DNA of 34,831 nucleotides from a virus. This document shows positions 128 to 33,309 of this stretch, one piece after another. The translations under genes were made by a program, and so were the position numbers. The notes beneath the pieces were generated by a model. That model was not told the origin of the DNA. It saw only the letters and a program-made list of their open reading frames with translations, and searched no databases. The stretch spans positions 1 through 34,831 of the IMG/VR virus record IMGVR_UViG_3300025128_000011, one strand, 5' to 3'. Numbering within the stretch: position 1 is the first letter of the stretch; every line of letters starts with the position of its first letter.

Positions 128-249
128 CAAGTCTGCGGACCAGTGACGAAGAACGGCAAGAAGTGGAACAACAAATGATGCAGATGATGCAGCAAGCCCC
201 AGCGGGACAAGCCCCGCCAGAGCAAGCTGCGCCGGAACAACCTGTTTAA
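1..249 (+). CDS. Portal (head-tail connector) protein, C-terminal part
   Basis: This is the last 82 codons of the portal gene whose 5' part lies at 33388-34831. The frame is open from base 1 and ends at TAA 247-249. The first 127 bases duplicate the window's right end, so joining the ends gives a single protein of about 521 residues, close to the size of T7 gp8. The tail is rich in Gln, Met, Pro and Ala, which is common for podovirus portals. The stop codon lies inside a GTTTAAAC palindrome (244-251). A Shine-Dalgarno AAGGAG for the next gene follows at once. Confidence 0.93.
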   Translation, partial: HLDDIQDAMQWAQISTSLGPVAQSTVKADAVADYVADKLGVPTSLRTSDEERQEVEQQMMQMMQQAPAGQAPPEQAAPEQPV

Positions 250-263
250 ACAAGGAGATTGGT

Positions 264-386
264 ATGCCCCGCGTTGGTGGAAAGAAGTTTAGTTATGGCA
301 AAAAAGGCATGGCGGCTGCGAAGAAAGCCAGCGCCAAGTCAGGCAAGCCAATGAAAATGGCGAAGCCGCGCAAAGGCAAGAAATAG
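264..386 (+). CDS. Small Lys-rich structural-region protein (40 aa)
   Basis: This short ORF begins at ATG 264, 6 bases after a good AAGGAG (252-257), and ends at TAG 384-386. The product begins MPRVGGKKFSYGKKG and is about one third Lys plus Ala, very basic, with no membrane segment. Its stop overlaps the GTG start of the next gene. Short basic proteins of this style sit between portal and scaffold in many T7-like marine podoviruses. Their function is not established. DNA or capsid-interior binding would suit the charge but is inference. Confidence 0.7.
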   Translation: MPRVGGKKFSYGKKGMAAAKKASAKSGKPMKMAKPRKGKK

Positions 387-637
387 TGGCTAGGCCAGCT
401 AAAGGAAAAGCGCGTGTCAAAGTTACAAGCAGCGGCAAGCGTGTTTCCTACGGTCAAGCTGGCAAGGCTAAAGGTGGCGGCCCGCGTGTTCGTCCCGGCA
501 CATCAAAGGGTAATGCCTACTGCGCCCGTAGTGCAGGGCAGATGAAGAAACATCCATCCGCAGCCAAGAACCCAAATAGTCCGCTACGTTTATCGCGCAA
601 GCGATGGAAGTGCAGCGGTAAAACATCAAGGAAATAG
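386..637 (+). CDS. Conserved basic phage protein (83 aa)
   Basis: It starts at GTG 386, overlapping the preceding TAG by one base. The product is strongly basic and carries the run SAGQMKKHPSAAK, then PNSPLRLSRKRWKC near the end. I recognise that C-terminal pattern from small conserved phage proteins encoded next to portal genes, but no function is known. It is part of a chain of three small basic proteins (264-789), probably translated together. There is no SD at the normal distance, so translational coupling to the gene before is likely. Confidence 0.72.
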   Translation: MARPAKGKARVKVTSSGKRVSYGQAGKAKGGGPRVRPGTSKGNAYCARSAGQMKKHPSAAKNPNSPLRLSRKRWKCSGKTSRK

Positions 638-639
638 CT

Positions 640-789
640 ATGGCGAAGCCCGGTTTATATTCCAACATTCACAAAAAGCGGGCCAGAATTAAGGCCGGTT
701 CTGGTGAGCGCATGAGAAAACCCGGCAGTAAAGGAGCGCCAACTGCAAAGGCGTTTAAACGTTCCGCCAAAACTGCAAAGAAAAAGTAA
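640..789 (+). CDS. Conserved Lys-rich phage protein (49 aa)
   Basis: ATG 640 follows AAGGAAATAGCT, two bases after the previous stop, and the ORF ends at TAA 787-789, overlapping the next ATG. The product reads GLYSNIHKKRARIKAGSGE at residues 5-23, then RMRKPGSKGAPTAKAFK. This is a pattern I recognise as a widespread small phage protein of unknown role in structural modules. It is extremely basic. The AFKR codons hold a GTTTAAAC palindrome (753-760). Its position just before scaffold and capsid suggests a virion or assembly role, by inference only. Confidence 0.78.
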   Translation: MAKPGLYSNIHKKRARIKAGSGERMRKPGSKGAPTAKAFKRSAKTAKKK

Positions 790-1076: not shown

Positions 1077-1890
1077 AGAAAACGTTGAGGCAACCGAAAC
1101 TGCGGAAGCAGCACCAGAGCCAGAAGCGGGCTTGTTAGACAACGTTGAAGCACCTAATCCCGATGCCGTCGAGGCGGCAGAAGACGATGAGATAGATCAC
1201 CGCGAACCGGGCGGTGATGGAGAAAAGCCGGAATGGTTGCCGGATAGATTTTGGAACGGGGATAGCGGCGAAGCTGATTATGAGGGATTGGCGAAAAGCC
1301 AGAACGAACTTTACAAGATGATGCGAAACGGAAAGCATCAGGTGCCGGAAGGCGGCGAGTATGATCTACGTTTTGTTAATGAGAGAATTGCAGATGACGA
1401 CGAACTTCTGGGTAAGTTCAAAGAAGTCGCTTCTGACAGAGGGTTGTCGCAAGACGATTTTGAAAAAATTGTCGGGCTGGTTATGGAAACGATGCCGGAA
1501 GATGTGGGAGAACCGGAACAAAAGTTTGACCGCGAAGCAGAGTTTGCAAAGCTAGGCCCGAATGGCGAGAACATCGTTAACGGTGTAGTTAAGTGGGCAG
1601 AGGGGCTTGTAAACAACGGAGCTTGGACCGCAGAGGATTTCGACGAGTTTAAGTTTATGGGCGGCACGGCTTCCGGCATTCGTGCGCTAAACAGGTTGCG
1701 CCAATACTACGGCGAGAAAACTATTCCCGTTGATGCAACGCCTGATTCAGAAGCAATGCCAACAGAGGAAGAATTGCAAGCCATGGTTTCTGATCCGCAA
1801 TATAACAAAGACCCATCGTTCCGCCGTAAGGTCGCAGACCAGTTTGTCAGGAAATACGGCTCAGACCCTAACAGCCCGCAGATTATGTAA
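1069..1890 (+). CDS. Scaffolding / capsid assembly protein
   Basis: This 273-aa protein has an acidic, Ala/Glu-rich, low-complexity first 60 residues, a helical middle and a charged C-terminal helix (residues about 245-270, ending DPSFRRKVADQFVRKYG). These are the usual properties of T7 gp9-like scaffolds, which template procapsid assembly and then leave. A motif near residues 55-67 (EWLPDRFWNGDSG) is common in phage capsid assembly proteins of this type. It lies directly before the capsid gene and is followed by a strong terminator. Assignment rests on composition and position as much as on sequence. Confidence 0.85.
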   Translation: MAEENVEATETAEAAPEPEAGLLDNVEAPNPDAVEAAEDDEIDHREPGGDGEKPEWLPDRFWNGDSGEADYEGLAKSQNELYKMMRNGKHQVPEGGEYDLRFVNERIADDDELLGKFKEVASDRGLSQDDFEKIVGLVMETMPEDVGEPEQKFDREAEFAKLGPNGENIVNGVVKWAEGLVNNGAWTAEDFDEFKFMGGTASGIRALNRLRQYYGEKTIPVDATPDSEAMPTEEELQAMVSDPQYNKDPSFRRKVADQFVRKYGSDPNSPQIM

Positions 1891-1921
1891 TTACCTCCCT
1901 AAACGTTAACCTCCTAGACTT

Positions 1922-1946
1922 CCCCCGCTACGGCGGGGGTTTTTTT
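1922..1946 (+). terminator. Rho-independent terminator after scaffold gene
   Basis: A perfect 7-bp GC stem (CCCCCGC 1922-1928 with GCGGGGG 1933-1939) closes a TACG loop, a stable UNCG-type tetraloop, and is followed by seven T. It separates the scaffold transcript from the capsid promoter downstream. Confidence 0.92.
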
Positions 1947-1976
1947 GTCTATAAGCTAAATGATGTGTTAAGAAAC

Positions 1977-2006: not shown

Positions 2007-2014
2007 CGAAATGA

Positions 2015-2087: not shown

Positions 2088-2126
2088 GATGCCGATAGTT
2101 TTTCATCAATGTAAGGGACCAGTAAA

Positions 2127-2966: not shown

Positions 2967-2978
2967 GGAGAAAAACTC

Positions 2979-3254: not shown

Positions 3255-3260
3255 TCGAGC

Positions 3261-3939: not shown

Positions 3940-6555
3940 ATGGGCCGGTTTGTAAAAGTTCAAACCAATTTTGCAGTCGGTGAAATAAACCCGGAGCTAC
4001 GCGGGCGTATTGATCTGCAACAATATGAAAGTGCGCTGGAGCGTGCGCGGAATGTAATCTGCAAGCCGCAGGGCAGTGTCGAGCGTCGGCCTGGGCTGAA
4101 ATACATTTACACCATACCTGACGCGGCTTCACCGTCTGATGGTGTGCGCCTCGCGCCGTTTACATTCAGCACCACACAAACGTATATGCTGGTCTTTTCC
4201 GGCACGCGGATGATGGTGTTTAAACAGGGCGTGCAAGTCGCCAATATAAACGGCACCGGCAACGACTATCTTGATGTGTCGTCTAGCGTGAGCGGCGTTA
4301 CCGATGGCGTTACGTCTGCCCGCCTAACCAATCTATGGTACACGCAAAGTGCGGACACGCTGTTGTTGTTTGAGGAAACAATGACGCCGCTGAAAATTCA
4401 ACGGGGAGCAACGGATGCAACGTGGACTGTTGCAGACATTGCTTTTGATAATGTGCCTTATTACGCGTTCACCCTTACTGCGACAAGCCCCGGTGTTACG
4501 CTAACGCCTTCCGCTGTTACAGGTGAGATCACGTTGACCGCAAGTGCGGCAGCGTTCCATGACGGCAGATCAGACACGGCCCAGGCTGGTGGAAGTGACA
4601 CGATCACGCTCGACAGTGGGGCGTCTAGTACCAACGACATTTTCAACGGCTCTATAATTAGGACGACAGGCGGCACAGGATCAGGCCAAACGCGTGTTAT
4701 TTCCGATTATGACGGCAGTTCAAAAGTTGCCACTGTATCCGTTGCCTGGACAACGCAACCAGCCAGTGACACGACATTCACGATTGAGTCCCTTGTAAAC
4801 CAATACGTTGAGTCGAACGATAACTTTGGCAGGGCTAAGATTACAGGAATAACGAGTAGCACTGTAGTCAAAGCAACCACCGTTGTCGGGTTTTTTAACA
4901 CTGATGCAATCGCGTCTGGCGCGTGGACCCTAGAAGCGGGCTATGAAGATGCGTGGTCTAGCACCAGAGGGTGGCCGCGCTGCGCTGTATTCCACGAAGG
5001 CCGTTTGATTGTTGGTGGTTCGCAATCGTTGCCGTCTACCGTGTGGGGTAGCCGCGTTGGTGACTACTTTGATTACGATGAAGGCCGCGCTCTTGATGAC
5101 GAAGGCATGAGTGCAACCATCGACACGAACCAAGTCAACGCTATCGTTGGTGTGTTTTCCGGGCGTGACCTTCAGATATTCACAACCGGCACAGAGTTCA
5201 TATGCCCGCAAAACGATGGCTCACCGTTGACACCAACCTCGTTCATCTTCAAGCCCATGACAACGCGGGGATCGAAAGGCGGCACTCAACCGGTCAGTAC
5301 AGAAGGCGGCACGCTGTACTTACAGCGCGGCGGCAAAGCTATTCGTGAGTTTTTGTTTAGCGATGTCGAGGGCAGCTATGTGTCCAATGACATTAGTTTG
5401 TTGTCCAGCCACCTTTTGCAGACTCCCACCCGTATGACTATGCGGCGTGGCACGAATGTTGATGAAGGCGATTTGATGTTCGTCACCAATAGCGGTGATG
5501 GGTCTATTGCCGTGTTTTCAATTTTGCGTTCGCAGAATGTCGTAGCGCCAAGTCTGTTCACAACGGATGGATTGTTCAAGGATTGCCAAGTTGAGGATGC
5601 GGATGCGCCGGTCATCTATTCCATAGTCAACCGCACCCTAGCAAACGAAAGCACTTGCACCATCGTGGTTTCCGATTACGCCAACATTGCTGTTGGTTCT
5701 ACTATTATCTTGAAGACTTCTTCCGGTACGTCGGTGACATTTACCAGCGCCGGATCAGCGGGCACCAGCCAATGGCAAAGTACGACGAGCAATAACCAGA
5801 CCGCTACTAATTTAGCCGCTGCGATTAACGGCCATGCGTCCTTTTCGGCGAGTGCGTCAACGGCGACGGTTACAGTGACCCGTGCGGCAATCGGCAGAGA
5901 GAACCTGACGGTTACGTCTTCCGATACAACACGCCTGACGGCAACGGATTTTACCAATACGCAAGTGTACTATTTGGAGTCATTCAGCGCTGATCACACT
6001 ACGGATTGCTCTATCCAATACACGGCAACAGCGGGCAATCTACCGGCCTCCACCACTGTGGGGTCACTGAACTTCCTTGAAGACTACACAGTCAAGGTCA
6101 TTGCTGATGACAATATCTTGTCTGACGTAACAGTTGCGTCGAACCAAGCAGTAGTGGACCGGGTTGCGACAACGTATATGGAGATTGGGTTAGAGTACCC
6201 AAGCTTCACTGACACGCTGGCTGGTGATGCTACGAAGACAACGCCGTTAATCCGCACGATGCCAGTGGAAACGCGTCTGCCCAGCGGGCCGATTACCGGC
6301 AATAAAAAGCGTATCGTTAAGGCCAACCTCATTTTGGACAACACGCAAAACTGCACGGTCAACGGATCAGACATTCCGTTTCGGCAGCTTGGCGCGTCAT
6401 TCTTGGATCAAGGCATTGATAAGTTCACGGGCACCAAGTCTATCGGGCCATTCCTTGGATATGATTTGAAAGGGCAAATCGAAGTGACGCAATCGCAACC
6501 CATGTTTCTGACGCTGTTAAATCTCGACTACCGCGTCAGTGTGGCGACAGACTGA
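3940..6555 (+). CDS. Tail tubular protein B-like (gp12-like) nozzle protein
   Basis: This 871-aa protein has a diagnostic N-terminus: a GRF..VQTNFAVGEINPEL block, then RARNVICKPQGSVERRPGL near residues 34-53. That pattern is common to gp12/TTPB-type nozzle proteins of many podoviruses. The rest is Thr/Ser-rich beta structure, including two repetitive regions (about 190-290 and 560-690) that look like inserted beta domains. It forms the distal tail tube. It starts two bases after the stop of the adaptor gene. A GTTTAAAC site lies at 4218. Confidence 0.9.
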   Translation: MGRFVKVQTNFAVGEINPELRGRIDLQQYESALERARNVICKPQGSVERRPGLKYIYTIPDAASPSDGVRLAPFTFSTTQTYMLVFSGTRMMVFKQGVQVANINGTGNDYLDVSSSVSGVTDGVTSARLTNLWYTQSADTLLLFEETMTPLKIQRGATDATWTVADIAFDNVPYYAFTLTATSPGVTLTPSAVTGEITLTASAAAFHDGRSDTAQAGGSDTITLDSGASSTNDIFNGSIIRTTGGTGSGQTRVISDYDGSSKVATVSVAWTTQPASDTTFTIESLVNQYVESNDNFGRAKITGITSSTVVKATTVVGFFNTDAIASGAWTLEAGYEDAWSSTRGWPRCAVFHEGRLIVGGSQSLPSTVWGSRVGDYFDYDEGRALDDEGMSATIDTNQVNAIVGVFSGRDLQIFTTGTEFICPQNDGSPLTPTSFIFKPMTTRGSKGGTQPVSTEGGTLYLQRGGKAIREFLFSDVEGSYVSNDISLLSSHLLQTPTRMTMRRGTNVDEGDLMFVTNSGDGSIAVFSILRSQNVVAPSLFTTDGLFKDCQVEDADAPVIYSIVNRTLANESTCTIVVSDYANIAVGSTIILKTSSGTSVTFTSAGSAGTSQWQSTTSNNQTATNLAAAINGHASFSASASTATVTVTRAAIGRENLTVTSSDTTRLTATDFTNTQVYYLESFSADHTTDCSIQYTATAGNLPASTTVGSLNFLEDYTVKVIADDNILSDVTVASNQAVVDRVATTYMEIGLEYPSFTDTLAGDATKTTPLIRTMPVETRLPSGPITGNKKRIVKANLILDNTQNCTVNGSDIPFRQLGASFLDQGIDKFTGTKSIGPFLGYDLKGQIEVTQSQPMFLTLLNLDYRVSVATD

Positions 6556-7211: not shown

Positions 7212-9089
7212 ATGGCTAGGCCCGCACTCCCTCGCGCATCATTTCTTACCAGCGGTGTAACTCCGGCGTCTGGTGGCGGCGTTACTGTGCCATTGAGCAA
7301 CCCAGCGCTGGAAATGGAAGCCCGCAGTTACAACAGTCTGGCGCAACGTTTAAACGCGTTTAGTCAACAGGCGTTTGGAGTCGCAGAGCAAAGAGCAAAG
7401 ACGGCGGGTGAAGTGTATGGGATTGAAAACGCGCCGACATTAGAGCAAGTGGAGTCAGCAAAACAACTAGGCCAGCCCGTAGAAGTGCCGGGCGATGTCA
7501 GTTCCGGGCGCGTGTTCGATCAAGCGGCATATGCCGGTTCGATGGCTGTAGTGGAATCGCGTTATGCGACGGCAGCGCAGAAAGCGATGACTGACATATT
7601 TGTCGCAGCGGACGCAGACGCAACGATTACGCCGCAAGAAGTCCAAGTGCAGATGCAAGCCGCTGTTACGGAATACACCAAGTCGCTGGGCATGGTCGAT
7701 GCAGCCAGTGCGGCAAAGCTGACAAACAAGCTAGGCATCATGGCAAATAGCAAGTATGTCGAGTTCAGCCGCAGCTATGCCAACCGTATGCAAAAACAGA
7801 TGGTCGATGGTGCGCTTGTTGCGGCTGATGACTATTTGGAAAACGTGTTGCCGTCTAGAATCACTGGGTACAACGCAAAGACGGCAAAGGTGTCGCTTGA
7901 CACTTCCATACTTGGAGATCGCGCTAACTTGGACGCCTCGTTAGAAACGCAAGGCGTTGGCGCTATCCAGCGTGATAAGATTTTAGATCGGTATGACAAG
8001 GCGGTCATCGATAACAAAATCAACGCAATCGTTCGTTTGTCTGATGACGCGACAGGGACAGACCCGCAAGCCGATGTGATGGAGATGATCAAGCGGCTAA
8101 AGAAGGGCAATCTGGCGGATCGAAGCAGACAGGAAATCTTTGACTCGCTGACGCCAGAGCAAAAACGCAAATCTTTGGGGGATTTGTTTAGCGCCGGTAC
8201 AGCTATGAAAAAGCAGTTAGGCGATGATGATGATGCTAATAAGGCAGCGCAGATAGGACTCTACAATAAGTTTCAGAATGAGGTGTGGGGTAAAGACCCA
8301 AATTATGAAGATTTAAAGAAACGTATTCTTGCCAGCACGCTCTTACCGAAAGGCGATTATGGCAAAGACTCGTTGTTATCGCGTATCAACCAAATGGAAA
8401 ACGCCAAGAAGACAGACGCCGGATCAACCGGCCCAACCGCAATGCAAATATCGGAGTTTAGAGAATTTACGGACAGAATTTACTTGCCATCGAATAATCC
8501 AAACCGCCTGACGGCAGAAAAAATAGCGCGTTTAAAAATTACAATTTTGCCTGTGGCGGGCAATAACGGAGTAAACCTTACAATTCTTAGGAATTTAGCC
8601 AAAGAAGATCAAACCGCAGATGGAAAAGCGTTGAAGGATTTAAAACAAGTATTGTTACGGCAAGTTAAAGCCGCTGTTGGGTTGAGAGAGTATGGCGATA
8701 AAAATCAGGCGGCGGATATGCTATATGCGGATGCCGTGGCTGATCTTGAAAGGCTTGTCCAGAGCGAAATTGAACTTGGGAATATGGATAAATTGCTTGA
8801 AGACCCGCTGTTTAAAAACGGTAGTGAAAGACAAAGAGCGTTTATTTCTTATTACAAAGGCCAGACCATAGGGTTACAGGAAAGATTGAAAAAAATTGGT
8901 GAAAAACTAGAGGGTTCTCCACCTGTGGCTCCCAACAATGTGCCGTTTAGAGAGTTTGAAATAAATATAAAACTCTACCGGGGCAAATATAAGAAGTTGG
9001 CTAAATACCTCAGTGGGCCAAATGTTCTGGATAGGAAAGTTTCAGAACAACAGGCAAAAGAATTTTATGAAGCGGTATATGGGCCATGA
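7212..9089 (+). CDS. Internal virion protein (gp15-like)
   Basis: This 625-aa, mostly helical, charged protein has no membrane segment or catalytic motif that I can see. The first 60 residues contain LEMEARSYNSLAQRLNAFSQ, typical of gp15-like ejection proteins in BPP-1-type podoviruses. It lies immediately after the gp14-like gene (TAA then ATG) and overlaps the gp16-like gene by 4 bases. The role is building the periplasmic DNA channel, by analogy with T7 gp15. The RLN codons near residue 46 carry a GTTTAAAC site (7348). Confidence 0.78.
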   Translation: MARPALPRASFLTSGVTPASGGGVTVPLSNPALEMEARSYNSLAQRLNAFSQQAFGVAEQRAKTAGEVYGIENAPTLEQVESAKQLGQPVEVPGDVSSGRVFDQAAYAGSMAVVESRYATAAQKAMTDIFVAADADATITPQEVQVQMQAAVTEYTKSLGMVDAASAAKLTNKLGIMANSKYVEFSRSYANRMQKQMVDGALVAADDYLENVLPSRITGYNAKTAKVSLDTSILGDRANLDASLETQGVGAIQRDKILDRYDKAVIDNKINAIVRLSDDATGTDPQADVMEMIKRLKKGNLADRSRQEIFDSLTPEQKRKSLGDLFSAGTAMKKQLGDDDDANKAAQIGLYNKFQNEVWGKDPNYEDLKKRILASTLLPKGDYGKDSLLSRINQMENAKKTDAGSTGPTAMQISEFREFTDRIYLPSNNPNRLTAEKIARLKITILPVAGNNGVNLTILRNLAKEDQTADGKALKDLKQVLLRQVKAAVGLREYGDKNQAADMLYADAVADLERLVQSEIELGNMDKLLEDPLFKNGSERQRAFISYYKGQTIGLQERLKKIGEKLEGSPPVAPNNVPFREFEINIKLYRGKYKKLAKYLSGPNVLDRKVSEQQAKEFYEAVYGP

Positions 9090-18361: not shown

Positions 18362-18657
18362 CGCGCCACCATGACGCGCTGGTTTCGACCACTGCGCCCC
18401 TTCCGTTTGCCGTGAACGTTTACCAGCCCCTTGTCGATCAGCGCTTTGAACCGTGCCGTCACGCTGCTATAGGCCAGATCAGGCAACCGGCTTTGCACTT
18501 CATCGCTGATGCAACCGGTGGCCCCGAATGAGCGGATCGTGTCGAACACCATCTTCTCCAGCTTCGTGCTGTCGATACTGTCCGCTGCTTCAAATGACGT
18601 TGGCGGGCTTTCGCGGCGGACTAGTTTGAAAGTTTCCGTTCCGAAAAGGTCGTTCAT
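18358..18657 (-). CDS. Winged-helix DNA-binding protein (99 aa)
   Basis: Residues 30-97 read as a winged helix: LEKMVFDTIRSFGATGCISD, then LPDLAYSSVTARFKALIDKG, a recognition helix, and a basic wing GKRKGRSGRNQRVMV. This style occurs in phage regulators and replication accessory proteins. It lies between the exonuclease and ERF genes, overlapping both neighbours by 4 bases. It could regulate the operon or assist recombination on DNA; the sequence does not decide. Confidence 0.72.
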   Translation of the reverse strand: MNDLFGTETFKLVRRESPPTSFEAADSIDSTKLEKMVFDTIRSFGATGCISDEVQSRLPDLAYSSVTARFKALIDKGLVNVHGKRKGRSGRNQRVMVAR

Positions 18658-23581: not shown

Positions 23582-23609
23582 CCGGCGCTATGGCGCAATG
23601 GTGTTGCGT

Positions 23610-24191
23610 TTAAACGTTGCCGTACATAAACCCGCCACACCCGCATGTGGGATATCCCGCCTTCTCAATAGCGGCACGCGATGCGCGAGCGATAAACCCG
23701 CAATCGTGGCATGTCATTTTGATCATGCGCGTGGTTTGTTTTTTGCGGTCCTGTAGGTTGATCTTGGCGTGCGGGTACGGCCCTAGCGCTGCCGATATCT
23801 TTTCAAGCTTGGCCGTCAGTTCCGGCCCGCTTGTTGTTGCGGTCATTTTGCCTTGAAGACCGATGGCGAGTGCCATGGTGCGGAACGGCCCGCGATGCCC
23901 ATGCTCGCAATCGTCAATGGCGTGGATCATTTCGTGTGCGACGATGCCTAGCACTTCGAGCGGATCGTCCTCCGCCGGGCTTATAAACATTTCGCGGGTT
24001 GCATCATCGGATGAGCCGGATGGCCAGCATTCGCCAATGCGTTTGCGAGCGCTGCCCCCGCCCGGCCACGAACAAGCGATGCGCCAGGAAGCGTTTAAAC
24101 GCTCAATACCGGCGGGTTCGAATACGTCGGTATTCAGCATGTTGACGGCAGCGGTCAACCATTCATCGCGGGTGTTGTATGTGTAAGCCAT
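23610..24191 (-). CDS. SprT-like zinc metalloprotease
   Basis: A 193-aa protein from ATG 24191 (SD GAGGT). The zinc-protease motif HEMIH is at residues 86-90, with a further His in the CEHGHRGPF that follows, as in SprT/Spartan-type proteases. The C-terminus has a zinc ribbon: CHDCG and a CGCGG pair. In eukaryotes this fold cuts DNA-protein crosslinks; phage members are little studied. Its stop codon lies in a GTTTAAAC palindrome (23608), and a second copy (24093) encodes ERLN. It might remove proteins blocking phage DNA, which is inference. Confidence 0.85.
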   Translation of the reverse strand: MAYTYNTRDEWLTAAVNMLNTDVFEPAGIERLNASWRIACSWPGGGSARKRIGECWPSGSSDDATREMFISPAEDDPLEVLGIVAHEMIHAIDDCEHGHRGPFRTMALAIGLQGKMTATTSGPELTAKLEKISAALGPYPHAKINLQDRKKQTTRMIKMTCHDCGFIARASRAAIEKAGYPTCGCGGFMYGNV

Positions 24192-24192
24192 G

Positions 24193-24414
24193 TCAGACCT
24201 CATTCATCTTCAAAGCATGTTTTAAGACGCGTTCGCGTTGTCCGGGTGTCAGAGTCGCCATGACGGCCAGCACCTTGATTGATTCATTGCGGACGCGATC
24301 AATGGGGAATGTATTAGTGCGTGGCTTGCGGGGTTCTGTGACACCGGCAGCGGCCAGCAATTGTTCGCGGATTTCTGGCAAACAATCTTCGACGTTAATT
24401 TTTGGCACGCCCAT
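24193..24414 (-). CDS. Unknown small protein (73 aa)
   Basis: ATG 24414 overlaps the stop of the membrane-protein gene (TAATG), a strong coupling signal; upstream in-frame starts would lie inside that gene. The product has MGVPKINVEDCLPEIREQLL, a basic middle and a helical end (TPGQRERVLKHALKMNE). No domain is recognised. It lies directly before the SprT-like gene and may be translated with it. Confidence 0.6.
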   Translation of the reverse strand: MGVPKINVEDCLPEIREQLLAAAGVTEPRKPRTNTFPIDRVRNESIKVLAVMATLTPGQRERVLKHALKMNEV

Positions 24415-24695
24415 TAGTCGCACCCGACGCAAAGCATGAACATGAAGAAAAGCATAAACGCGGATGCCGTGAGCCACATGATGGCATGGCTCAATGCGTC
24501 AAAGATGAAACCGCCCATCACAAAAGGTGCGACGGTCAACCCGCAGAATAGCAGTGTGGTGACGATGTATGCCGCAAGGCATAGATCGCGGTCAGCACCT
24601 TGCAAGGCGCGCCGGGCTTGTGGTTGCCATGGTTCGGGCCGCTTGGTGCGGTTGAAAGCGCGTAGACGATCAAGGCTTCGTGTTGTGCAGTCCAT
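24414..24695 (-). CDS. Two-helix membrane protein (93 aa)
   Basis: A basic cytoplasmic-type start (residues 1-35) is followed by two hydrophobic helices (about 40-60 and 68-88) and a short CVGCD end. The ATG at 24695 follows AGGAGTCAG. The size and layout fit a small phage inner-membrane protein, possibly superinfection exclusion, but nothing shows that directly. A 26-bp copy of its leader (24699-24724) is repeated before the next upstream gene at 25093-25118. Confidence 0.65.
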   Translation of the reverse strand: MDCTTRSLDRLRAFNRTKRPEPWQPQARRALQGADRDLCLAAYIVTTLLFCGLTVAPFVMGGFIFDALSHAIMWLTASAFMLFFMFMLCVGCD

Positions 24696-24698
24696 TAT

Positions 24699-24724
24699 AC
24701 TGACTCCTATTAAGTGTGCATTTA
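24699..24724 (-). repeat. 26-bp leader repeat (copy 1)
   Basis: This is identical to 25093-25118. On the minus strand it contains CACACTTAATAGGAGTCAGT, so both copies provide the ribosome binding site of the gene they precede (24414-24695 and 24788-25090). Shorter versions with only GGAGTCAG occur before several other leftward genes. Confidence 0.85.
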
Positions 24725-24787: not shown

Positions 24788-25090
24788 CTATGCTGTGTTG
24801 CGTACATAGTGGTTTGATTCGGTTTTGACCAAATCGCCTAGGCATTCGATCACAACGGCCTCTTGTGCGGATGTGTAGGAAATGGTCCGGCGCTTAATGC
24901 CAGGGTTTCCGCAACCGCAACCGCATATTGCGTTTGAAGCAATATGGTCGTGGGCCTTTTGGATCATCGCCAAGGTGACGATGACGGGCTTGCCCGTAGC
25001 ATTGCGGGAAAGGGTGATGCGTTGGGCGTCAACGGATTCGACGGCCAGTTTATCGCCAAACATCTGTTGGCCGGGCGTTGGTAAATTCAT
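24788..25090 (-). CDS. Unknown protein with Cys-rich loop (100 aa)
   Basis: ATG 25090 follows AGGAGTCAGTTA; upstream in-frame starts would cross the control region. The product has a beta-like first half (PTPGQQMFGDKLAVESVDAQ) and an ICGCGCGNPG loop near residue 60, which could bind a metal. There is no recognised family. It is the first gene leftward from the divergent control region, so it is probably among the earliest expressed. Confidence 0.62.
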   Translation of the reverse strand: MNLPTPGQQMFGDKLAVESVDAQRITLSRNATGKPVIVTLAMIQKAHDHIASNAICGCGCGNPGIKRRTISYTSAQEAVVIECLGDLVKTESNHYVRNTA

Positions 25091-25092
25091 TA

Positions 25093-25118
25093 ACTGACTC
25101 CTATTAAGTGTGCATTTA
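25093..25118 (-). repeat. 26-bp leader repeat (copy 2)
   Basis: Identical to 24699-24724 and carrying the AGGAGTCAG ribosome binding site for the gene at 24788-25090. Duplication of a leader with its RBS suggests genes here were added or copied as cassettes. Confidence 0.85.
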
Positions 25119-25204: not shown

Positions 25205-25924
25205 ATGGCAGATGATGCAAATGAACCCGTGATAGGGGCCGCACAAGGCGGACCACCATCGCTATACACTCGCATTCCAACGCGGGTGATATGGGATAGT
25301 CGCGCCCAACGTGGGAAGGGGAAAGGATTCACGCCGGGTGAATTGCGGCAATTCGCTATGTTGTGTGCGTATGCAAACAATCAGGGATTCGCATATCCAA
25401 ACCAACAGACGATAGCAGATATCGCCGGGACTGATCGTGGCGCGGTTGCGCGTATGCTGATAAAGGCGAAGCGCCTTGGCTATATAGAGAGAGTGTCAGT
25501 CTATAGAGATCACCCGAAATGGCGTCACGTTATGGGCGCGGTTTGGCGGATAATATATGACGCCCGGTTGACGCAAGACGATTTGATTGACGATCTCAAC
25601 AAGAATGATCCGGCCCCTATTATAGAAGATGACCTGCCAGCAGCGGAAACAACGGCGGACAACGGCACGGGTAAGCATGGGATTGAAGGGGACCAGTTGG
25701 GACTAGTTGAGGCTAATGCTTTAGCGCATTGGTTCGTCCATCAAGTGAGTGCCACGACAGGCGAGGTCCGCATAGTAAATGAACGCGCTATTCATGATGC
25801 CACCCAATGCCTGGACATTGAAGGCAGCAAGGCCGCAGCGATAGAAGCACTATCAGAGTGCCGCGACAAGCGACGGTCAGCGCCACCGACAATGGCAGCG
25901 TTTAAACAGGCGTCCCAAGGCTAA
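25205..25924 (+). CDS. Winged-helix (HTH_36-like) early protein
   Basis: This 239-aa protein, the first rightward gene, has an HTH at about 38-95: FTPGELRQFAMLCAYANNQG, then AYPNQQTIADIAGTDRGAVA and IKAKRLGYIERV, as in the HTH_36 domains of phage replication initiators and regulators. The C-terminal 100 residues are acidic and helical, ending with TMAAFKQASQG, where AFKQ is encoded across a GTTTAAAC site (25900). It may open replication or control early genes. It lies directly beside the operator-like palindromes. Confidence 0.75.
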   Translation: MADDANEPVIGAAQGGPPSLYTRIPTRVIWDSRAQRGKGKGFTPGELRQFAMLCAYANNQGFAYPNQQTIADIAGTDRGAVARMLIKAKRLGYIERVSVYRDHPKWRHVMGAVWRIIYDARLTQDDLIDDLNKNDPAPIIEDDLPAAETTADNGTGKHGIEGDQLGLVEANALAHWFVHQVSATTGEVRIVNERAIHDATQCLDIEGSKAAAIEALSECRDKRRSAPPTMAAFKQASQG

Positions 25925-25940: not shown

Positions 25941-26258
25941 GTGACAGATGATAAAAAAGATCAGCAATTACAATGGCTTGACCCACCTTTTGCCCCCCCG
26001 GCCCTGCCGGTCATGTATAGGGGATCTCACAAAAATATTTCGAGGTTTCCCATGCTAACCGCCGCAACCCGCGCAATCGAAGCGCTTCCAGAAAGCCAGC
26101 GTTTACCCGTTGCAATAGCCCTTCTCGTCCACTTTGCAGGCCTTACAGCACGCATGGACAAGCTCATCAGCGCTGGATATGCGCGAAAGCAACCTGATCG
26201 TGGGGAGCTTGACATAGCTGAAGTGATACGAGCCACAGCGGAGGAGTGTAATGACTAG
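25941..26258 (+). CDS. Unknown small protein (105 aa)
   Basis: It starts at GTG 25941, 17 bases after the previous stop, with only a weak SD. The N-terminus is Pro-rich (QWLDPPFAPPALPVMYRG) and the rest is helical (ATRAIEALPESQRLPVAIAL). No domain is recognised. It overlaps the ribbon-helix-helix gene by 8 bases, which suggests co-translation. An internal ATG near 26013 is a possible shorter start. Confidence 0.6.
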   Translation: MTDDKKDQQLQWLDPPFAPPALPVMYRGSHKNISRFPMLTAATRAIEALPESQRLPVAIALLVHFAGLTARMDKLISAGYARKQPDRGELDIAEVIRATAEECND

Positions 26259-26451
26259 CTTTCACCAGACAACGGTGCGTTTACCCGACGATTTACGCGC
26301 AGCATTGAAGGCCCAGGCCGCTTTGGAACGCAGATCGATGGGTAACTTGATTATCGATCTGTGCGTGAACGGGTTGAAGGTCCGCGAGGAATCGAATGAG
26401 GACCGTCTGAACCAGTTCAAGCGGCTTATTCGCGCAACGGGGCAAATATGA
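26251..26451 (+). CDS. Ribbon-helix-helix (Arc/CopG-like) DNA-binding protein
   Basis: The 66-aa product has the compact ribbon-helix-helix order: HQTTVRLPDDLRAALKAQAA (a beta strand with TVRLP, then helix A) and ERRSMGNLIIDLCVNGL (helix B). Such dimers bind operators through the strand. The size and a basic face fit phage Arc-like regulators. ATG 26251 overlaps the previous stop and its own stop overlaps the RusA start. It is a candidate reader of repeated palindromes in this genome. Confidence 0.85.
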   Translation: MTSFHQTTVRLPDDLRAALKAQAALERRSMGNLIIDLCVNGLKVREESNEDRLNQFKRLIRATGQI

Positions 26452-26822: not shown

Positions 26823-26983
26823 TCTGGCGCGATGAGCGGTGGCAAACCCGTGTTGTGCAGGGGTTTATGAACGAGTTTGGCGTCAGGCAAGAGAAGGTGT
26901 TCGAGGATTTTATTCCTGGCGGCTGGGATATTTGCCCGGTGTGTGTGAAGCGCAGCGAATGGGAATACGGAGCCAGCCGGTGA
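26789..26983 (+). CDS. Small zinc-ribbon-like protein, probable ATT start (64 aa)
   Basis: The frame gives MDCFECRGTGMIWRDERWQT and later GGWDICPVCVKRSEWE. These are two CxxC pairs, as in small zinc ribbons, and the first is followed by GTG as in DnaJ-type knuckles. To include the first pair the gene must start at ATT 26789; the first in-frame ATG (26819) would lose it. It overlaps RusA by 34 bases. Metal binding is inferred, and the role is unknown. The stop overlaps the methyltransferase GTG. Confidence 0.55.
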   Translation: MDCFECRGTGMIWRDERWQTRVVQGFMNEFGVRQEKVFEDFIPGGWDICPVCVKRSEWEYGASR

Positions 26984-27516
26984 GTTACAGCGTGATACTT
27001 GCGGACCCGCCGTGGAGTTGGAAGGCGCGGAGTGCAAAGGGGGAAGGTCGCAGTGCGAAGAACCATTACAACGTCATGGAACAGGATGATCTTCATCGTA
27101 TGTCTGTTAGCCGTGTTGCCGCTGATGACAGTGTTTTATTTCTGTGGGTTCTCAATTCGATGCTTGGTCAAGGCTTGCAGCTTATTGATGCTTGGGGATT
27201 CACGTTTAAGACGGTTGGGTTCTGCTGGGTTAAGACGAATAGTCGATCCGGTTCTTTGTTCATGGGGCTAGGCTATCACACGCGGCAGAATGTCGAGCTT
27301 TGCCTGATTGCAACCAAAGGCAAGCCCAAGCGTGTGAGTGGTGGTGTGCATCAGGTAGTGATGTCACCCAGGCGTGAGCATAGCCGTAAGCCTGACGAAG
27401 TGTATGAACGCATCGAAGCGCTATACCCAGGGCCGTATCTGGAAATGTTCAGCCGCACCAGACGCACGGGCTGGGACGCGATAGGTGATGAAGTAGGAAG
27501 GTGGAAACATGGCTAA
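26980..27516 (+). CDS. MT-A70-family adenine (N6) DNA methyltransferase
   Basis: GTG 26980 overlaps the previous stop and gives the family's usual start, SYSVILADPPWSWKARS. The DPPW catalytic motif is at about residues 9-12. Later blocks VLFLWVLNSMLGQGLQLIDA, GFCWVKTN, GLGYHTRQNVELCLIATKGK and PRREHSRKPDEVYERIE are highly typical of phage MT-A70 proteins. Length is 178 aa. It methylates adenine in short DNA motifs and may protect phage DNA from restriction. It sits next to the predicted guanine-modification genes. Target site unknown. Confidence 0.93.
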   Translation: MSYSVILADPPWSWKARSAKGEGRSAKNHYNVMEQDDLHRMSVSRVAADDSVLFLWVLNSMLGQGLQLIDAWGFTFKTVGFCWVKTNSRSGSLFMGLGYHTRQNVELCLIATKGKPKRVSGGVHQVVMSPRREHSRKPDEVYERIEALYPGPYLEMFSRTRRTGWDAIGDEVGRWKHG

Positions 27517-27988
27517 TGTCAAATATACGGTTGGTTACATTGCGCTCATTGTCCTAGTAAATTGGGGCTTCACAGTAGTCCCGCTGCTAGAACTGCCCGG
27601 CGGCGAAATGTGGCCCCCAATGAGTTTGATTGTTGGCCTAATTTTTGTGGCCCGCGACTACGTCCAGCGCGAAATCGGTCATCGTGTGATCATTGCAATG
27701 CTGGTTGCCGCCGCGTTGTCTTATGTGATGGCCTCGCCGTTTGTTGCGGTGGCAAGCCTAGCCGCCTTTTTGATTTCAGAGTTTGCTGATTGGGCCGTTT
27801 ACAGCTTTACCAAGAAGCCGCTGCATGAGCGGATTTTGTGGTCAAGCGCGATTGCAACGCCTGTTGATTCAGCGGTTTTCTTGGCCGTCATCAACCACCT
27901 TAGTTGGAGTGGTGTGATTGCCATGACGGTCAGCAAGATGATTGCTGCGCTCATTGTCTGGCAGATCGTGAGGCAGAGATGCGCGTAA
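27509..27988 (+). CDS. VUT/YhhQ-type queuosine-precursor transporter
   Basis: This 159-aa membrane protein has five or six helices and the VUT family motifs: MWPPMSLIVGLIFVARDYVQ near the start (the RDYVQ.E turn), FLISEFADWAVYSFTKKPLH, and WSSAIATPVDSAVFLAVINH. These are the diagnostic ISE..D...Y and SS....P.DS segments of YhhQ, which imports preQ0/preQ1-type 7-deazaguanines. ATG 27509 overlaps the methyltransferase end by 8 bases. In this context it would feed a base to the DpdA-like enzyme two genes downstream. Actual substrate is inferred. Confidence 0.92.
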   Translation: MANVKYTVGYIALIVLVNWGFTVVPLLELPGGEMWPPMSLIVGLIFVARDYVQREIGHRVIIAMLVAAALSYVMASPFVAVASLAAFLISEFADWAVYSFTKKPLHERILWSSAIATPVDSAVFLAVINHLSWSGVIAMTVSKMIAALIVWQIVRQRCA

Positions 27989-28218
27989 CGTACACATTTA
28001 CAATCGAAGCCGTCTGTCCAGTTGATAAGAAAAAAGATGTCTATGAGGTCGAGGTTATCTCTGACAGGACAATCCCTGTTGAAGACATTTTGCGATTCAC
28101 TAAGGATCAACCTGAAGCGTTTCAAGAAACATTGACAGAGAACCTTGCAAGACTTCTGGGAGCGAGGGTGATCTCAACAGGCTGGCACTCAGGCGTGAAA
28201 ACGGTCTGCGAGGCCTAA
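27979..28218 (+). CDS. QueF-like minimal T-fold protein, possible 7-deazaguanine tailoring enzyme
   Basis: This 79-aa protein starts at ATG 27979, overlapping the transporter gene by 10 bases, and overlaps the DpdA gene by one base. Residues 13-20 read CPVDKKKD, so Cys13 and Asp20 have the spacing of the catalytic Cys and Asp of QueF (CPxTGxPD). Residues 48-50 are FQE, at the place of QueF's FHE with His replaced by Gln. The NADPH-binding E(S/L)K motif of true QueF is absent (VEDILRF). This recalls QueF-L, the archaeal enzyme that acts on preQ0 without NADPH. It ends TGWHSGVKTVCEA. The call rests on motif spacing, so a search is needed for certainty. Confidence 0.6.
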   Translation: MRVTYTFTIEAVCPVDKKKDVYEVEVISDRTIPVEDILRFTKDQPEAFQETLTENLARLLGARVISTGWHSGVKTVCEA

Positions 28219-28904
28219 TGATCCACTATCACTGCGCTGATATTCATCCCCATCACCGGCTCACAGAGTTAGCGGGGAAACATTTGCTTGTCAGTCATGC
28301 CTACCCAACCGCGGCGATGATTAGCCATCAGATCGGGCAGAGTTGCTTGCTCGACAACGGTGCGTTTTCGGTATGGAAAAGCGGTAAAACAGCGGATTGG
28401 AGTGCCTTTTATGAGTGGGTGGACGTTTATCTGGATTGCCCAACGACATGGGCAATTATTCCTGACGTAATCGATGCGGATGAACAGACCCAGGATTTGT
28501 TAGTCGAGCAATGGCCCTATGGTCATCGGGGATCACCTGTGTGGCACATAGACGAAAGTATGGGCCGGTTGTTTCGTTTGATTGAGGCGTGGCCTCGCGT
28601 CTGCATTGGCTCCGCCGGTGAGTGGCCTGATGTCGGAACAGATAGCTGGCATAGACGTATGACGCACGTTTTTAACGAGGTCAGTAAGCGAGGCCGGTTG
28701 CCGTTTTTGCATGGTTTGCGGATGCAGGGCGTCGGTCATCTGTACCCGTTTGGGTCAGTCGATAGTGCTGACATTGCAAGGAATAATAATCGGAAACAGA
28801 ACACGATCCGGGGAATGGCTGCAAGATGGGATAGCGTGCAACCGCAGATTAGATGGCACCAGCAACCGGAGCAAATTGATTTGATGGAGTTTACTCATGG
28901 CTAG
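28218..28904 (+). CDS. DpdA-like DNA transglycosylase (7-deazaguanine insertion)
   Basis: This 228-aa protein resembles the TGT-related DpdA family of phages: CLLDNGAFSVWKSGK (like the DSGGFQ loop of TGT), TTWAIIPDVIDADEQTQDL, RVCIGSAGEWPDVG, LPFLHGLRMQGVGHLYPFG and SVDSADIARNNNRKQNT, where an Asp can act as the nucleophile. It lacks the C-terminal zinc site of TGT. DpdA exchanges guanine in DNA for a 7-deazaguanine, hiding the DNA from restriction enzymes. The gene overlaps the QueF-like gene before it and the replication gene after it, a strong operon signal. Confidence 0.88.
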   Translation: MIHYHCADIHPHHRLTELAGKHLLVSHAYPTAAMISHQIGQSCLLDNGAFSVWKSGKTADWSAFYEWVDVYLDCPTTWAIIPDVIDADEQTQDLLVEQWPYGHRGSPVWHIDESMGRLFRLIEAWPRVCIGSAGEWPDVGTDSWHRRMTHVFNEVSKRGRLPFLHGLRMQGVGHLYPFGSVDSADIARNNNRKQNTIRGMAARWDSVQPQIRWHQQPEQIDLMEFTHG

Positions 28905-29655: not shown

Positions 29656-30046
29656 GTTTGATCTGGTTGGCATCCAACTTCCCGCTGACATGACTGTGGC
29701 AGATTTACAACGTGCCAGAGATTACGTCTTGCAGACCACTAAGCCCGCTGATGAGGGGCGGCTGGTGCAGCTATTGGCGCAGATGCAGATGATGATGAAG
29801 CATCGCAATCTGGATGCCGCGCACATGGATTTGATGCTGGCCGGTTATGTAGACAAATTGCGGGAGTACCCGGCAGATGCCGTCGAGGAAGGTTTGAACA
29901 GCCTCTTGGATTCCTGTGAGTGGTTTCCGGCCTGGGCGGAAATGCGCGATGCCATAGCGTGGCGATGCCAGCGGCGGACATTGATGCTGGTGGCAATAGA
30001 CCACGCTATTACCCAGCGGCAGATGCAGAGCATCCGCAGTGCGTGA
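29537..30046 (+). CDS. Helical protein, possible helicase loader partner (169 aa)
   Basis: ATG 29537 has a good SD (GAGG, 7 bases before) although it lies 119 bases inside the replication gene, in another frame. In-frame alternatives are TTG 29644 and ATG 29690. The core is helical: HRNLDAAHMDLMLAGYVDKL, then YPADAVEEGLNSLLDSCEWF and PAWAEMRDAIAWR. The 'L..YP.D.V..AL......FP...E....' pattern is seen in phage proteins encoded next to replication initiators and thought to act as helicase loaders. Function is inferred by position. Confidence 0.65.
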   Translation: MNQIIESRESRQSALSLDRDAVTSLERHSGFRIEERLSNEFDLVGIQLPADMTVADLQRARDYVLQTTKPADEGRLVQLLAQMQMMMKHRNLDAAHMDLMLAGYVDKLREYPADAVEEGLNSLLDSCEWFPAWAEMRDAIAWRCQRRTLMLVAIDHAITQRQMQSIRSA

Positions 30047-31035: not shown

Positions 31036-31046
31036 GCCGCGATAAC

Positions 31047-31099
31047 GGGGATGAGGGGTTTTTATCTAAAGATTAGGTCATTGGGTTGCCCCTCATCCC
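31047..31099. promoter_or_regulatory. Long inverted repeat between TerS-like and TerL genes
   Basis: GGGATGAGGGG (31048-31058) and CCCCTCATCCC (31089-31099) are perfect 11-bp inverted repeats around a 30-base AT-rich loop. The T run follows the first arm rather than the second, so a classic terminator is unlikely. It may be a terminase recognition (pac-like) site or an RNA element controlling TerL. Confidence 0.5.
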
Positions 31100-31112
31100 T
31101 ATGAATTAAAAA

Positions 31113-32639
31113 ATGAGTAATTTTGAAGCTGCAAATCTGAACTTAGATTTCTCGACGGCACCGACTGTCTGGAAGTTTCTACGCGATGACAGTTTCGTGC
31201 GTGGGATCATGGGTCCAGTGGGCAGCGGCAAGAGTTACGCTTGTGCTGCGGAGATTATGCTGCGGGCCGTCAGGCAAAAGCCTAGCCCGCGTGATGGCAT
31301 CCGTTACACGCGATTCGCCGTAGTCCGAAACAGCTACCCCATGCTGAAGACAACGACACTGAAAACGTGGATGGAAATTTTTCCAGAGAATATTTGGGGC
31401 AACGCGCACTGGTCGCCACCCATCACGCATCACATCAAGTTACCGTCCCGTGGTGACGCGCATGGCGTGGATTGCGAAGTCATATTTCTGGCTCTTGACC
31501 AGCCCAAGGATGTACGGAAGTTACTTAGCCTCGAACTAACCGGCGCTTGGATCAACGAGTGCCGAGAGTTACCCAAGGCAATCATCGATGGCTTGTCGCA
31601 CCGTGTCGGCAGATACCCGACACAAGCAGATGGCGGGGCAACATGGCGCGGTATATGGGCCGATACCAACCCCATGGATTCAGATCACTACTGGTATAGG
31701 CTGGCGGAAGGCAAGGAAGCGCCGGGGGGGAAATTTGCGTGGCAGTTTTTCCGGCAACCGTCAGGTGTGTTGGAAACGTCAAGCGAGGACTTGCCTGATC
31801 AACCAGAGTTCAACGGGTTTGTGCAGAGCGCGGGCAAGTGGTGGATGACCAATCCGGTAGCGGAGAACATCCATAATCTACCTGATGGCTACTATGAACA
31901 GCTTGTCGGCGGCAAGAACCTTGATTGGATTCGGTGTTACGCGAAAGGCGAATACACATACGTCCAAGAAGGCAAGAGCATCACGCCGGAATACGACGAT
32001 GACCTGATGACTGTAGACGGGTTGCAGTACGATCCAAGTCTGCCGGTGCAGATAGGTTTGGACTTTGGACTAACGCCCGCCGCGTGTTTTGGGCAGCGCC
32101 ATTCATCCGGGCAATGGCGCATACTGCACGAACTGGTGACGTTCGATATGGGCCTGGAAAGGTTTTGCAATAGCCTCAAAGCTGAGTTGGAAATGATGTT
32201 CCCAAAAGCGGAAGTGATGATATGGGGCGATCCGGCTGGTCAGCAACGTGACCAAATTTATGAAGTAACCGCGTTCGATTTCTTGAAGACAATTGGCATG
32301 TTAGCGCGGCCCGCCGCAACGAACGATTGGAAGACACGGCGCGAAGCCATGGCGGCACCCATGATCAGGTTTATTGACAAGAAACCCGGATTGCTTGTGG
32401 ACAAAAAATGCAACCGGACCCGTAAGGCGTTGGCTGGCGGGTATCACTTTAGCCGCGTCAGTATGGGCAGCGGTCAGGAACGCTTCCGCGATGTGCCGAA
32501 TAAAAACGAACACAGCCATATTGGTGACGCGTATGGCTATCTGGTGCTGGGTGGTGGTGAGCATAAGCGCATGACCAGACGCCCGGCAACGTGGGCCAAG
32601 CTGCCTGTTGCAAGTAGTGATTTTAATGTCTTTGCTTGA
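31113..32639 (+). CDS. Large terminase subunit (TerL)
   Basis: This 508-aa packaging motor has the Walker A GPVGSGKS at residues 34-41, a Walker B-like GAWINE near 145 followed by CRELPKAIIDGL, and an RNase H-type nuclease with Asp in QIGLDFGLT (about 317), GDPAG (about 373) and HIGDAYGY (about 471). It uses ATP to pump DNA into the procapsid and cuts concatemers. The start at ATG 31113 follows only a weak SD. It is followed, with an overlap, by the GNAT-like gene. Confidence 0.95.
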   Translation: MSNFEAANLNLDFSTAPTVWKFLRDDSFVRGIMGPVGSGKSYACAAEIMLRAVRQKPSPRDGIRYTRFAVVRNSYPMLKTTTLKTWMEIFPENIWGNAHWSPPITHHIKLPSRGDAHGVDCEVIFLALDQPKDVRKLLSLELTGAWINECRELPKAIIDGLSHRVGRYPTQADGGATWRGIWADTNPMDSDHYWYRLAEGKEAPGGKFAWQFFRQPSGVLETSSEDLPDQPEFNGFVQSAGKWWMTNPVAENIHNLPDGYYEQLVGGKNLDWIRCYAKGEYTYVQEGKSITPEYDDDLMTVDGLQYDPSLPVQIGLDFGLTPAACFGQRHSSGQWRILHELVTFDMGLERFCNSLKAELEMMFPKAEVMIWGDPAGQQRDQIYEVTAFDFLKTIGMLARPAATNDWKTRREAMAAPMIRFIDKKPGLLVDKKCNRTRKALAGGYHFSRVSMGSGQERFRDVPNKNEHSHIGDAYGYLVLGGGEHKRMTRRPATWAKLPVASSDFNVFA

Positions 32640-33309
32640 AGACATAGAGCGTTTAAACGAACACGTTAAGATCAAGCCGCCGCACAAGATCATAGATTTT
32701 GAACCGGCTCTGTTGCCGATGCTGGAGCCACGCGGCACAGATCGAACGTATTTTGACAATATCCCAAATTTCCATGGCGTGTTAGCCGGGTATGCAGAGA
32801 TCGGGCACGCTCACATGGGCATCACTAATGGCAGACCTGTGTGCATGTTTGGGTGCGTGCCGTTGTGGGCAGGGGTTGCAGAGCTTTGGATGATCACTGA
32901 TGTCAATCTGGCATCATCTGCGCGGACTTTTCACCGATGCACGAAGATGGTGCTAGACATTTATATGTCAGAGTTATCTCTGGTTCGCATACAAATCTGG
33001 ATACATTCGCAAAATGAACGGGCTATCAAGTGGGCAAAGTCCTTGTACTTTGAGCAAGAAGGCACCGCACGGCAGTTTGGGCCGGATGGTGCAGACTTTC
33101 ACTTATTTGCGAGGTTAAAAGATGGGCGGCATATTCTCAGCACCGAAACCTCCGCCACCTCCTCCCGGTCCCGATCCCGAAATGCTCAGAGCGCAGAGGG
33201 AGCAAGAGGAACGGCTAGAGGCACGGGAGCGCGAAAGCCAGCGAGAGTTGGCATCAAGGAAACGCGCAAGGCGGACAGGCGGAAACAGGTTACTTCTGGC
33301 AAACCGTGA
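32626..33309 (+). CDS. GNAT-like phage protein (DUF2833, T7 gp13-like) with overprinted tail
   Basis: ATG 32626 lies in the last codons of TerL. Residues 1-165 resemble the DUF2833/gp13-type GNAT-fold proteins: PLWAGVAELWMITDVNLASS, then ARTFHRCTKMVLDIYM and IWIHSQNERAIKWAKSLYFE with QFGPDGADFHLFARL. Such proteins normally end near here. Instead the frame continues for about 60 Arg/Ser-rich residues (TSATSSRSRSRNAQ...) that overlap the next gene in another frame. That tail is probably an accident of a lost stop. GTTTAAAC (32651) encodes ERLN near the start. Confidence 0.8.
   Translation: MSLLEDIERLNEHVKIKPPHKIIDFEPALLPMLEPRGTDRTYFDNIPNFHGVLAGYAEIGHAHMGITNGRPVCMFGCVPLWAGVAELWMITDVNLASSARTFHRCTKMVLDIYMSELSLVRIQIWIHSQNERAIKWAKSLYFEQEGTARQFGPDGADFHLFARLKDGRHILSTETSATSSRSRSRNAQSAEGARGTARGTGARKPARVGIKETRKADRRKQVTSGKP

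Follow-up and report, generated by a model that had tools for sequence, protein, structure and literature searches.

A dispersed palindromic octamer and a SprT-like zinc-ribbon protein that may read it in a stoperator-like manner in unrelated phages

INTRODUCTION

Why would a phage carry the same eight-base palindrome 17 times, mostly within its genes, and which protein would read it? The question is raised by a stretch of viral DNA of 34,831 nucleotides (here called the window) that makes up the whole of the IMG/VR record IMGVR_UViG_3300025128_000011 and belongs to a temperate-looking phage with genes for a tyrosine integrase, a serine recombinase, Erf, and an exonuclease. A preliminary description had pointed to the octamer GTTTAAAC, taken its abundance as a sign of selection for the DNA site itself, compared it with the stoperators of phage L5, and named LexA-like, winged-helix, and ribbon-helix-helix proteins of the phage as possible readers. 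Our results support the selection on the DNA word and the comparison with stoperators but not the proposed readers. The protein that tracks the word, which was not on that list of candidates, is a SprT-like protein with a zinc ribbon, and we propose that the octamer is the recognition site of this protein, which would act as an autoregulated repressor with stoperator-like sites. We give this reading a probability of about 0.6.

RESULTS

The octamer is in excess and is retained in relatives

The 17 exact copies of GTTTAAAC, the first starting at 244 and the last at 32651, are found exactly where they had been placed before. Dinucleotide shuffles gave a mean of 0.57 copies (maximum, 3), and Markov models of orders 2 and 3 predicted 0.65 and 1.0, in line with the earlier chance estimate of about 0.5, and the excess holds at both orders. 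A recount also returned the nine copies that form the 10-mer CGTTTAAACG, the ten copies within 15.9-25.9 kb, the two that supply a TAA stop codon (at 244, and at 23608 in the SprT-like gene), and the occurrence in every reading frame, mostly within genes. The clustering, at 15.4-25.2 kb, was weakly significant (p = 0.03). No other palindromic octamer was comparably enriched, the runner-up being CAGCGCTG with 6 copies against 1.1 expected, and the 24 one-mismatch variants of GTTTAAAC were at background level (0-4 each), so the reader of the word should be a strict one.

The word is equally dense in close relatives, with 18 copies in G001 (35.5 kb), 14 in G002 (24 kb), and 9 in G003 (11.7 kb), some of the copies that are additional to those of the window lying in DNA without a counterpart there. 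In G001, which is 91% identical to the window, 16 of 17 orthologous sites are kept, compared to 54% of all aligned 8-mers. The corresponding values are 9/10 versus 48% in G002, 8/8 versus 43% in G003, 4/4 versus 41% in G005, and 3/5 versus 17% in G004, where the identity is down to 77%. When only 8-mers with conserved encoded amino acids were considered, the sites were kept in 14/14, 7/7, 7/7, and 4/4 cases, compared to 55-65% of the other 8-mers. Since the sites are retained above the level of aligned 8-mers even with the amino acids fixed, we conclude from these alignments that GTTTAAAC is held by selection on the DNA, as had been suggested.

Individual sites illustrate this retention. The copies at 17364-17371 (Erf gene), 18205-18212, and 19517-19524 (exonuclease gene) are each kept in five of five covering relatives, with G004 among the five for the first of them, and the copy in the lysozyme gene (16713-16720) is kept in G001, G002, G003, and G005. 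The stop codon copy at 244-251 is kept in G001, G002, G006, and G008, and the intergenic copy at 753-760, a CGTTTAAACG, is kept in G001 and G002. Conversely, GTTTGAAC at 29892-29899 is one base off the word in the window and equals GTTTAAAC in G001, G002, G007, and G008. The remaining copies lie at 4218-4225 (in the tail gene 3940-6555), 7348-7355, 11164-11171, 11422-11429, 15931-15938, 20590-20597 (integrase gene), 21916-21923 (serine recombinase gene), 23608-23615 (where the SprT-like gene has its stop codon), 24093-24100 (inside the SprT-like gene, at +91 from its ATG at 24191), 25900-25907, and 32651-32658.

Dispersed words other than GTTTAAAC were also seen in this search. Two octamers in distant TerL relatives, CCTCGAGG and CGCCGGCG, looked enriched under a second-order model, but the enrichment shrank under the third-order model (0.7-3.5 expected), and the idea that this set held lineage-specific octamers was dropped for this reason. 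L082, a relative (IMGVR_UViG_3300030095_002337; terminase 85%), has its own dispersed and mostly one-orientation words, TTGCAGAC ten times and TTGCAGTC six times in 17.5 kb with 0.6-0.7 expected for each, and no SprT-like gene in the stretch examined; these words are possibly another stoperator-type system. What looked like a dispersed word in G028 (L141 and L142) came from 19-bp repeats arranged in tandem at the two ends of the contig, probably an assembly or terminal-repeat feature.

A SprT-like protein travels with the word

The first clue to the reader was L161, part of the otherwise unrelated phage G426 (33.8 kb), which has 19 copies of GTTTAAAC. When IMG/VR was scanned for pairs of CGTTTAAACG words 100-130 bp apart, 38 contigs were returned, many of them very word-rich (L272, for instance, has 38 copies in 12.6 kb). 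The protein of the window that recurred in the word-rich contigs was the SprT-like one, encoded at 23610-24203 on the minus strand (phrog_6361, E = 5e-38). It was the only family common to all 18 word-rich contigs compared, the remaining large clusters in that comparison (18/18 and 9 contigs) being antisense frames over the SprT gene, and its ribbon was encoded by 14 of the 38 whole contigs. Among relatives found by terminase, the SprT-like protein is limited to the word-rich clade and L027, which has two copies of GTTTAAAC in 15 kb (0.1 expected).

The association also holds in the opposite direction. When loci were chosen by SprT, blind to the word, and scored for a palindromic octamer at p < 1e-5, 6 of 10 were positive, compared to 1 of 106 control loci that had been selected by TerL or the winged-helix protein and had no detected ribbon (Fisher p = 5e-7). 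The single positive control is L161, which encodes SprT elsewhere on its own contig. The octamer was GTTTAAAC in three of the six positive loci and GTGTACAC, CTTTAAAG, and ATTTAAAT in the others (L284, L286, and L279, respectively). This co-occurrence across unrelated phages suggests that the SprT-like zinc-ribbon protein binds the octamer.

None of the readers proposed earlier tracks the word by presence or absence. A table of candidate readers was built over the relatives found by terminase, and the window encodes several helix-turn-helix genes. The LexA-like winged-helix protein (17101-17343, minus strand) is restricted to the word-rich clade at high identity, and both it and the winged-helix protein phrog_1123 (18358-18657, minus strand) are found in every close relative that is word-rich and covers the region. 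On the other hand, distant LexA-like homologues occur in word-free relatives, the winged-helix protein is present in about 70 phages without the word (the only word-rich phages collected by this protein were the window's own clade and L161), and the ribbon-helix-helix protein (26251-26451, plus strand) is likewise found in word-free relatives. Most of the unrelated word-rich phages lack such proteins, among them the LexA-like one, and we regard it as very improbable that any of the three is the reader. The integrase was rejected because it is absent from the word-rich G002, and a DpdA-like protein was rejected because its gene, together with a transporter neighbor, is absent from both G001 and G002. 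RusA and the replication proteins are also present in word-free terminase relatives.

The zinc ribbon is the segment that follows the word

The SprT-like protein is SprT-like by motif and by the annotation of its homologues as SprT-like proteases, with a score against Pfam PF10263 of 12.8 bits, below the cutoff of 25.6. It contains an HExxH motif with a third ligand (HEMIH, 23922-23936, minus strand; H86-H90 counted from the ATG at 24191; third ligand H99 at 23895-23897), and H86, E87, H90, and H99 are invariant across 20 homologues. The C-terminal zinc ribbon (23613-23747, minus strand; KKQTTRMIK...CxxCG...CxC) is the proposed DNA-reading module. The AlphaFold model is confident, with a predicted local distance difference test score (pLDDT) of 91, and places the strands of the ribbon at residues 156-191. 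A structure search of the PDB with this model gave no match below E = 0.001; CapP was a weak structural match only (E = 0.54), and the best viral structural match was SprT of phage FP1.

The ribbon has the consensus K-x-Q-x-T-R-x-x-K...C-x2-C-G...R...C-P and occurs apart from the protease. L272 and L249, the densest of the word-rich contigs, encode the ribbon alone as a separate protein of about 55 amino acids, and in L242 it is joined to a different N terminus. Conversely, Rollins and Quenya have retained the protease with a degenerate ribbon motif, FP1 and PSA20 lack the ribbon, and no octamer is present in the stretches read of these four phages. We compared the K-x-Q-x-T-R segment with the word variants in L284, L279, and L286, and the match is suggestive only; it is countered by the fact that the single GTTTAAAC of L279 lies inside the SprT gene and that L286 has no site at the gene.

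Octamers at the SprT promoter and at other promoters

The annotation "SprT-like protease" is found in many Arthrobacter, Microbacterium, and Streptomyces phages, and several of these carry a sister word, GTGTAAAC/GTTTACAC, with 27 copies in Powerpuff, 17 in Reedo, 16 in Zeta1847, and 24 in Microdon (0.4-0.9 expected) and 9 in Floof (0.18 expected). Copies of GTTTACAC point in both directions. Intergenic DNA makes up 8% of the Powerpuff genome but holds 13 of its 27 copies (p = 5e-8). Five of the 27 come immediately after a TAGACT -10 box, and the promoter of the SprT gene is among these five cases. In Zeta1847, several copies lie between -35-like and -10-like boxes (assigned by reading the sequence). 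In ep3, KA2-1, Arya, Persinger, Mano, L283, and L285, the start of the SprT gene is preceded at a distance of 24-28 bp by GTTTAAAC, and in L284 its own word, GTGTACAC, is at -52 of the gene. The SprT promoter of ep3 reads TATAATctaaacacGTTTAAAC, i.e., TATAAT-N8-GTTTAAAC, with the site at about +1. Ep3, KA2-1, Arya, Mano, Persinger, and L285 either have few copies or were read only around the SprT gene. That the start of the SprT gene has at least one copy even in phages with few of them is what an autoregulated repressor would show.

The same placement bears on whether the ribbon protein might instead be a positive regulator that activates or antiterminates the transcription of lytic genes. 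The octamers do lie in lytic genes and beside promoters, and some homologues carry the annotation "transcription elongation protein SprT." The sites in Powerpuff, Reedo, and ep3, however, begin at or just past the -10 box, a position from which a bound protein would obstruct the polymerase instead of recruiting it, and we consider positive control to be improbable.

A role of the SprT-like protein in genome maintenance is a more serious competitor, although still an unlikely one. The protein would then be a SPRTN-like protease parked on the phage DNA through the octamer to clear cross-linked or blocking proteins at replication, and the promoter copy would serve autoregulation only. SPRTN is a DNA-dependent protease that degrades DNA-protein cross-links (PMC12279946), and the invariant protease motif, the distribution of sites across the whole genome, and the presence of the protein in Microdon and ep3, where the stretch read has no annotated integrase, all fit such a role. 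It does not readily account for the protease-free ribbon that accompanies the densest sites, for octamers at several early promoters beyond that of SprT, or for Rollins and Quenya, in which the protease is retained and yet both the ribbon motif and the word are lost.

Powerpuff is also of interest with regard to lysogeny. This cluster AZ phage forms stable homoimmune lysogens but has no identifiable repressor, and an as yet unidentified repressor was inferred for clusters AZ and EH (PMC8758107); for AZ1 phages, the question was still open in 2024 (PMC11600132). Zeta1847, assigned to EH, and Reedo, which belongs to the subfamily Azeevirinae like Powerpuff, share both the protein and the word with Powerpuff, and the SprT-like protein is a candidate for the missing repressor of clusters AZ and EH. 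Our literature search found no paper that treats GTTTAAAC or GTGTAAAC as a word repeated in phages and none linking SprT, or these octamers, to phage repression.

No word-rich host among the sampled alphaproteobacterial genomes

An exact palindromic octamer in all coding frames and without near-variants is comparable to the highly iterated palindromes (HIPs) of some host genomes (PMC4390886), and the phage encodes an MT-A70 adenine methyltransferase (26839-27516, plus strand), so that a host-wide or methylation-driven word imprinted on the phage has to be considered. We searched 385 alphaproteobacterial genomes for a word-rich host and found at most about 45 copies per Mb, compared to about 490 per Mb in the phage; none of them was enriched in GTTTAAAC, and the host of the phage was not identified. 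The word also occurs in unrelated phages that have only SprT in common, and homologues of the methylase, which was thereby rejected as a reader too, are encoded by word-free relatives. Together, these observations leave an imprinted host word with very little probability.

An alphaproteobacterial host is suggested by relatives of the integrase and by a subthreshold match to the small RNA family suhB/mmgR at 1886-1954 (plus strand), between two head genes (30.6 bits versus a cutoff of 41). A search of the window for features that could place the host detected neither a tRNA gene nor an Rfam match exceeding a gathering cutoff.

Other features of the window

Some repeated sequences in the window are of a different kind. 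The enriched word CTGACTCC is accounted for by ribosome-binding sites (GGAGTCAG, minus strand); it is the ribosome-binding core of the 20-mer GCACACTTAATAGGAGTCAG, which precedes two leftward genes (24680-24720 and 25085-25115, minus strand), and it recurs before other leftward genes. CTTGAAGAC occurs eight times on the plus strand between 5709 and 32635 (0.2 expected), mostly in coding DNA. The transporter and the DpdA-like protein mentioned above are encoded at 27509-28904 (plus strand), where a YhhQ-like transporter (phrog_4899; identity assigned by reading the sequence) is followed by a short protein of the DpdA-like type, a family of queuine tRNA-ribosyltransferases, a pair suggesting 7-deazaguanine DNA modification.

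DISCUSSION

We propose that the 17 octamers of the window are recognition sites for the SprT-like protein that the phage itself encodes. GTTTAAAC, a member of the word family GT[T/G]TA[A/C]AC with two 4-bp half-sites, would be read by the C-terminal zinc ribbon, and the protein, bound to a site at about +1, would shut off the promoter of its own gene. Further copies, at other early promoters and scattered within genes, would be bound in many phages, and the intragenic copies could act as transcription roadblocks that together silence the prophage and confer immunity to superinfection, as stoperators do. The protease domain (HExxH...H) might lift the repression by cleaving the protein itself or a partner in response to a DNA damage or DNA-protein cross-link signal. 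The analysis shows the word itself, its retention in relatives, its joint occurrence with the ribbon in searches from either side, its loss along with the ribbon, and its positions at promoters; that the protein binds the word, represses transcription, confers immunity, and uses its protease for release is what we infer from these patterns.

Several observations weigh against this proposal. No site of the window overlaps an evident promoter: all are in genes or at gene ends, with one between genes. The promoter of the proposed repressor carries a site in relatives of the protein; at this gene in the window, one copy lies within the coding sequence and one at its end. The roadblock role would thus have to dominate in this phage. 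Four of the 10 SprT-selected loci had no strong octamer (loci of 6.7-11.6 kb only), none of the tested octamers was found near the SprT gene of L282, and the alternative words of L279 (ATTTAAAT) and L286 (CTTTAAAG) are not at the SprT promoter. No ribbon was detected in the word-rich contigs G439, G452, and L237. In addition, the stoperators of L5 are oriented 13-mers rather than a palindrome or near-palindrome, and the evidence for a role in prophages comes from a single tested cluster.

In G444, which is also word-rich and without a ribbon, the contig runs out about 5 kb before the position that the gene has in relatives. G452 (L312) has a longer palindrome around GTTTAAAC, TTCCGTTTAAACGGAA, with 25 copies in 18 kb and no SprT found, and is probably another system. 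In G462 (L322 and L323), the longer palindrome is GCGTTTAAACGC, and there is a weak SprT-like match with a ribbon-like tail; the long palindromes of G452 and G462 are possibly separate systems.

A broader claim, which we make only tentatively and hold to be less probable than the proposal for this phage, is that these proteins constitute a widespread and so far unrecognized class of immunity repressors, in which a ribbon reading GT[T/G]TA[A/C]AC is fused to a SprT-type protease that would be its own release switch upon DNA damage or cross-linking. The proposed reading gives a candidate for the first sequence-specific role of a family that is common in phages and is annotated only as "SprT-like protease." If it is true, systems of dispersed operators extend beyond the actinobacteriophages that have L5-type repressors, and one protein can combine repression with release by a protease. 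The octamer would also be a genome-wide marker with which such phages could be found in metagenomes.

Among known metalloprotease systems, the SprT/SPRTN family (Pfam PF10263) shares with the window protein the HExxH...H motif and a C-terminal zinc-binding segment, and SPRTN is DNA dependent; the window protein differs in scoring below the Pfam cutoff and has no strong PDB match. A literature search found no sequence-specific DNA recognition or repressor role for the SprT/SPRTN family. Metalloproteases are otherwise known in repressor control: ImmA is paired with the mobile-element repressor ImmR (PMC10233336), and IrrE cleaves DdrO, the repressor of DNA repair genes (PMC7907104). In ImmR/ImmA, DdrO/IrrE, and CapH/CapP, the repressor and the protease are separate, whereas both segments would be on one chain here. 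HIP1 of cyanobacteria (GCGATCGC) is also a high-frequency palindromic octamer for which relatives have alternative words (PMC4390886), but HIPs are a property of host genomes tied to methyltransferases, while GTTTAAAC is phage borne and tied to SprT.

The closest parallel is with the cluster A mycobacteriophages such as L5 and Bxb1, in which one short word is repeated many times genome-wide, with a few copies at promoters and the repressor gene and most in transcribed regions, and in which the words of related phages are similar without being identical (PMC6550527, PMC9283540). The octamer resembles these stoperators in its many dispersed copies, most of them away from promoters, and the comparison made in the preliminary description gains from the conservation of the sites, their dispersal, and the promoter copies in the named phages. 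It differs in that each L5 site is an asymmetric 13-mer, that most of these sites share one orientation, and that they sit in short gaps between genes, while an 8-bp palindrome or near-palindrome lying largely inside genes is found here. The reader in L5 is a monomer with helix-turn-helix and Stoperator domains, and the one proposed here is a zinc ribbon joined to a predicted HExxH protease. Lacking both the asymmetric 13-mer and such a reader, the system is not classified with the cluster A stoperators; by analogy, it would be a dispersed phage operator system with a new type of reader that works most like them.

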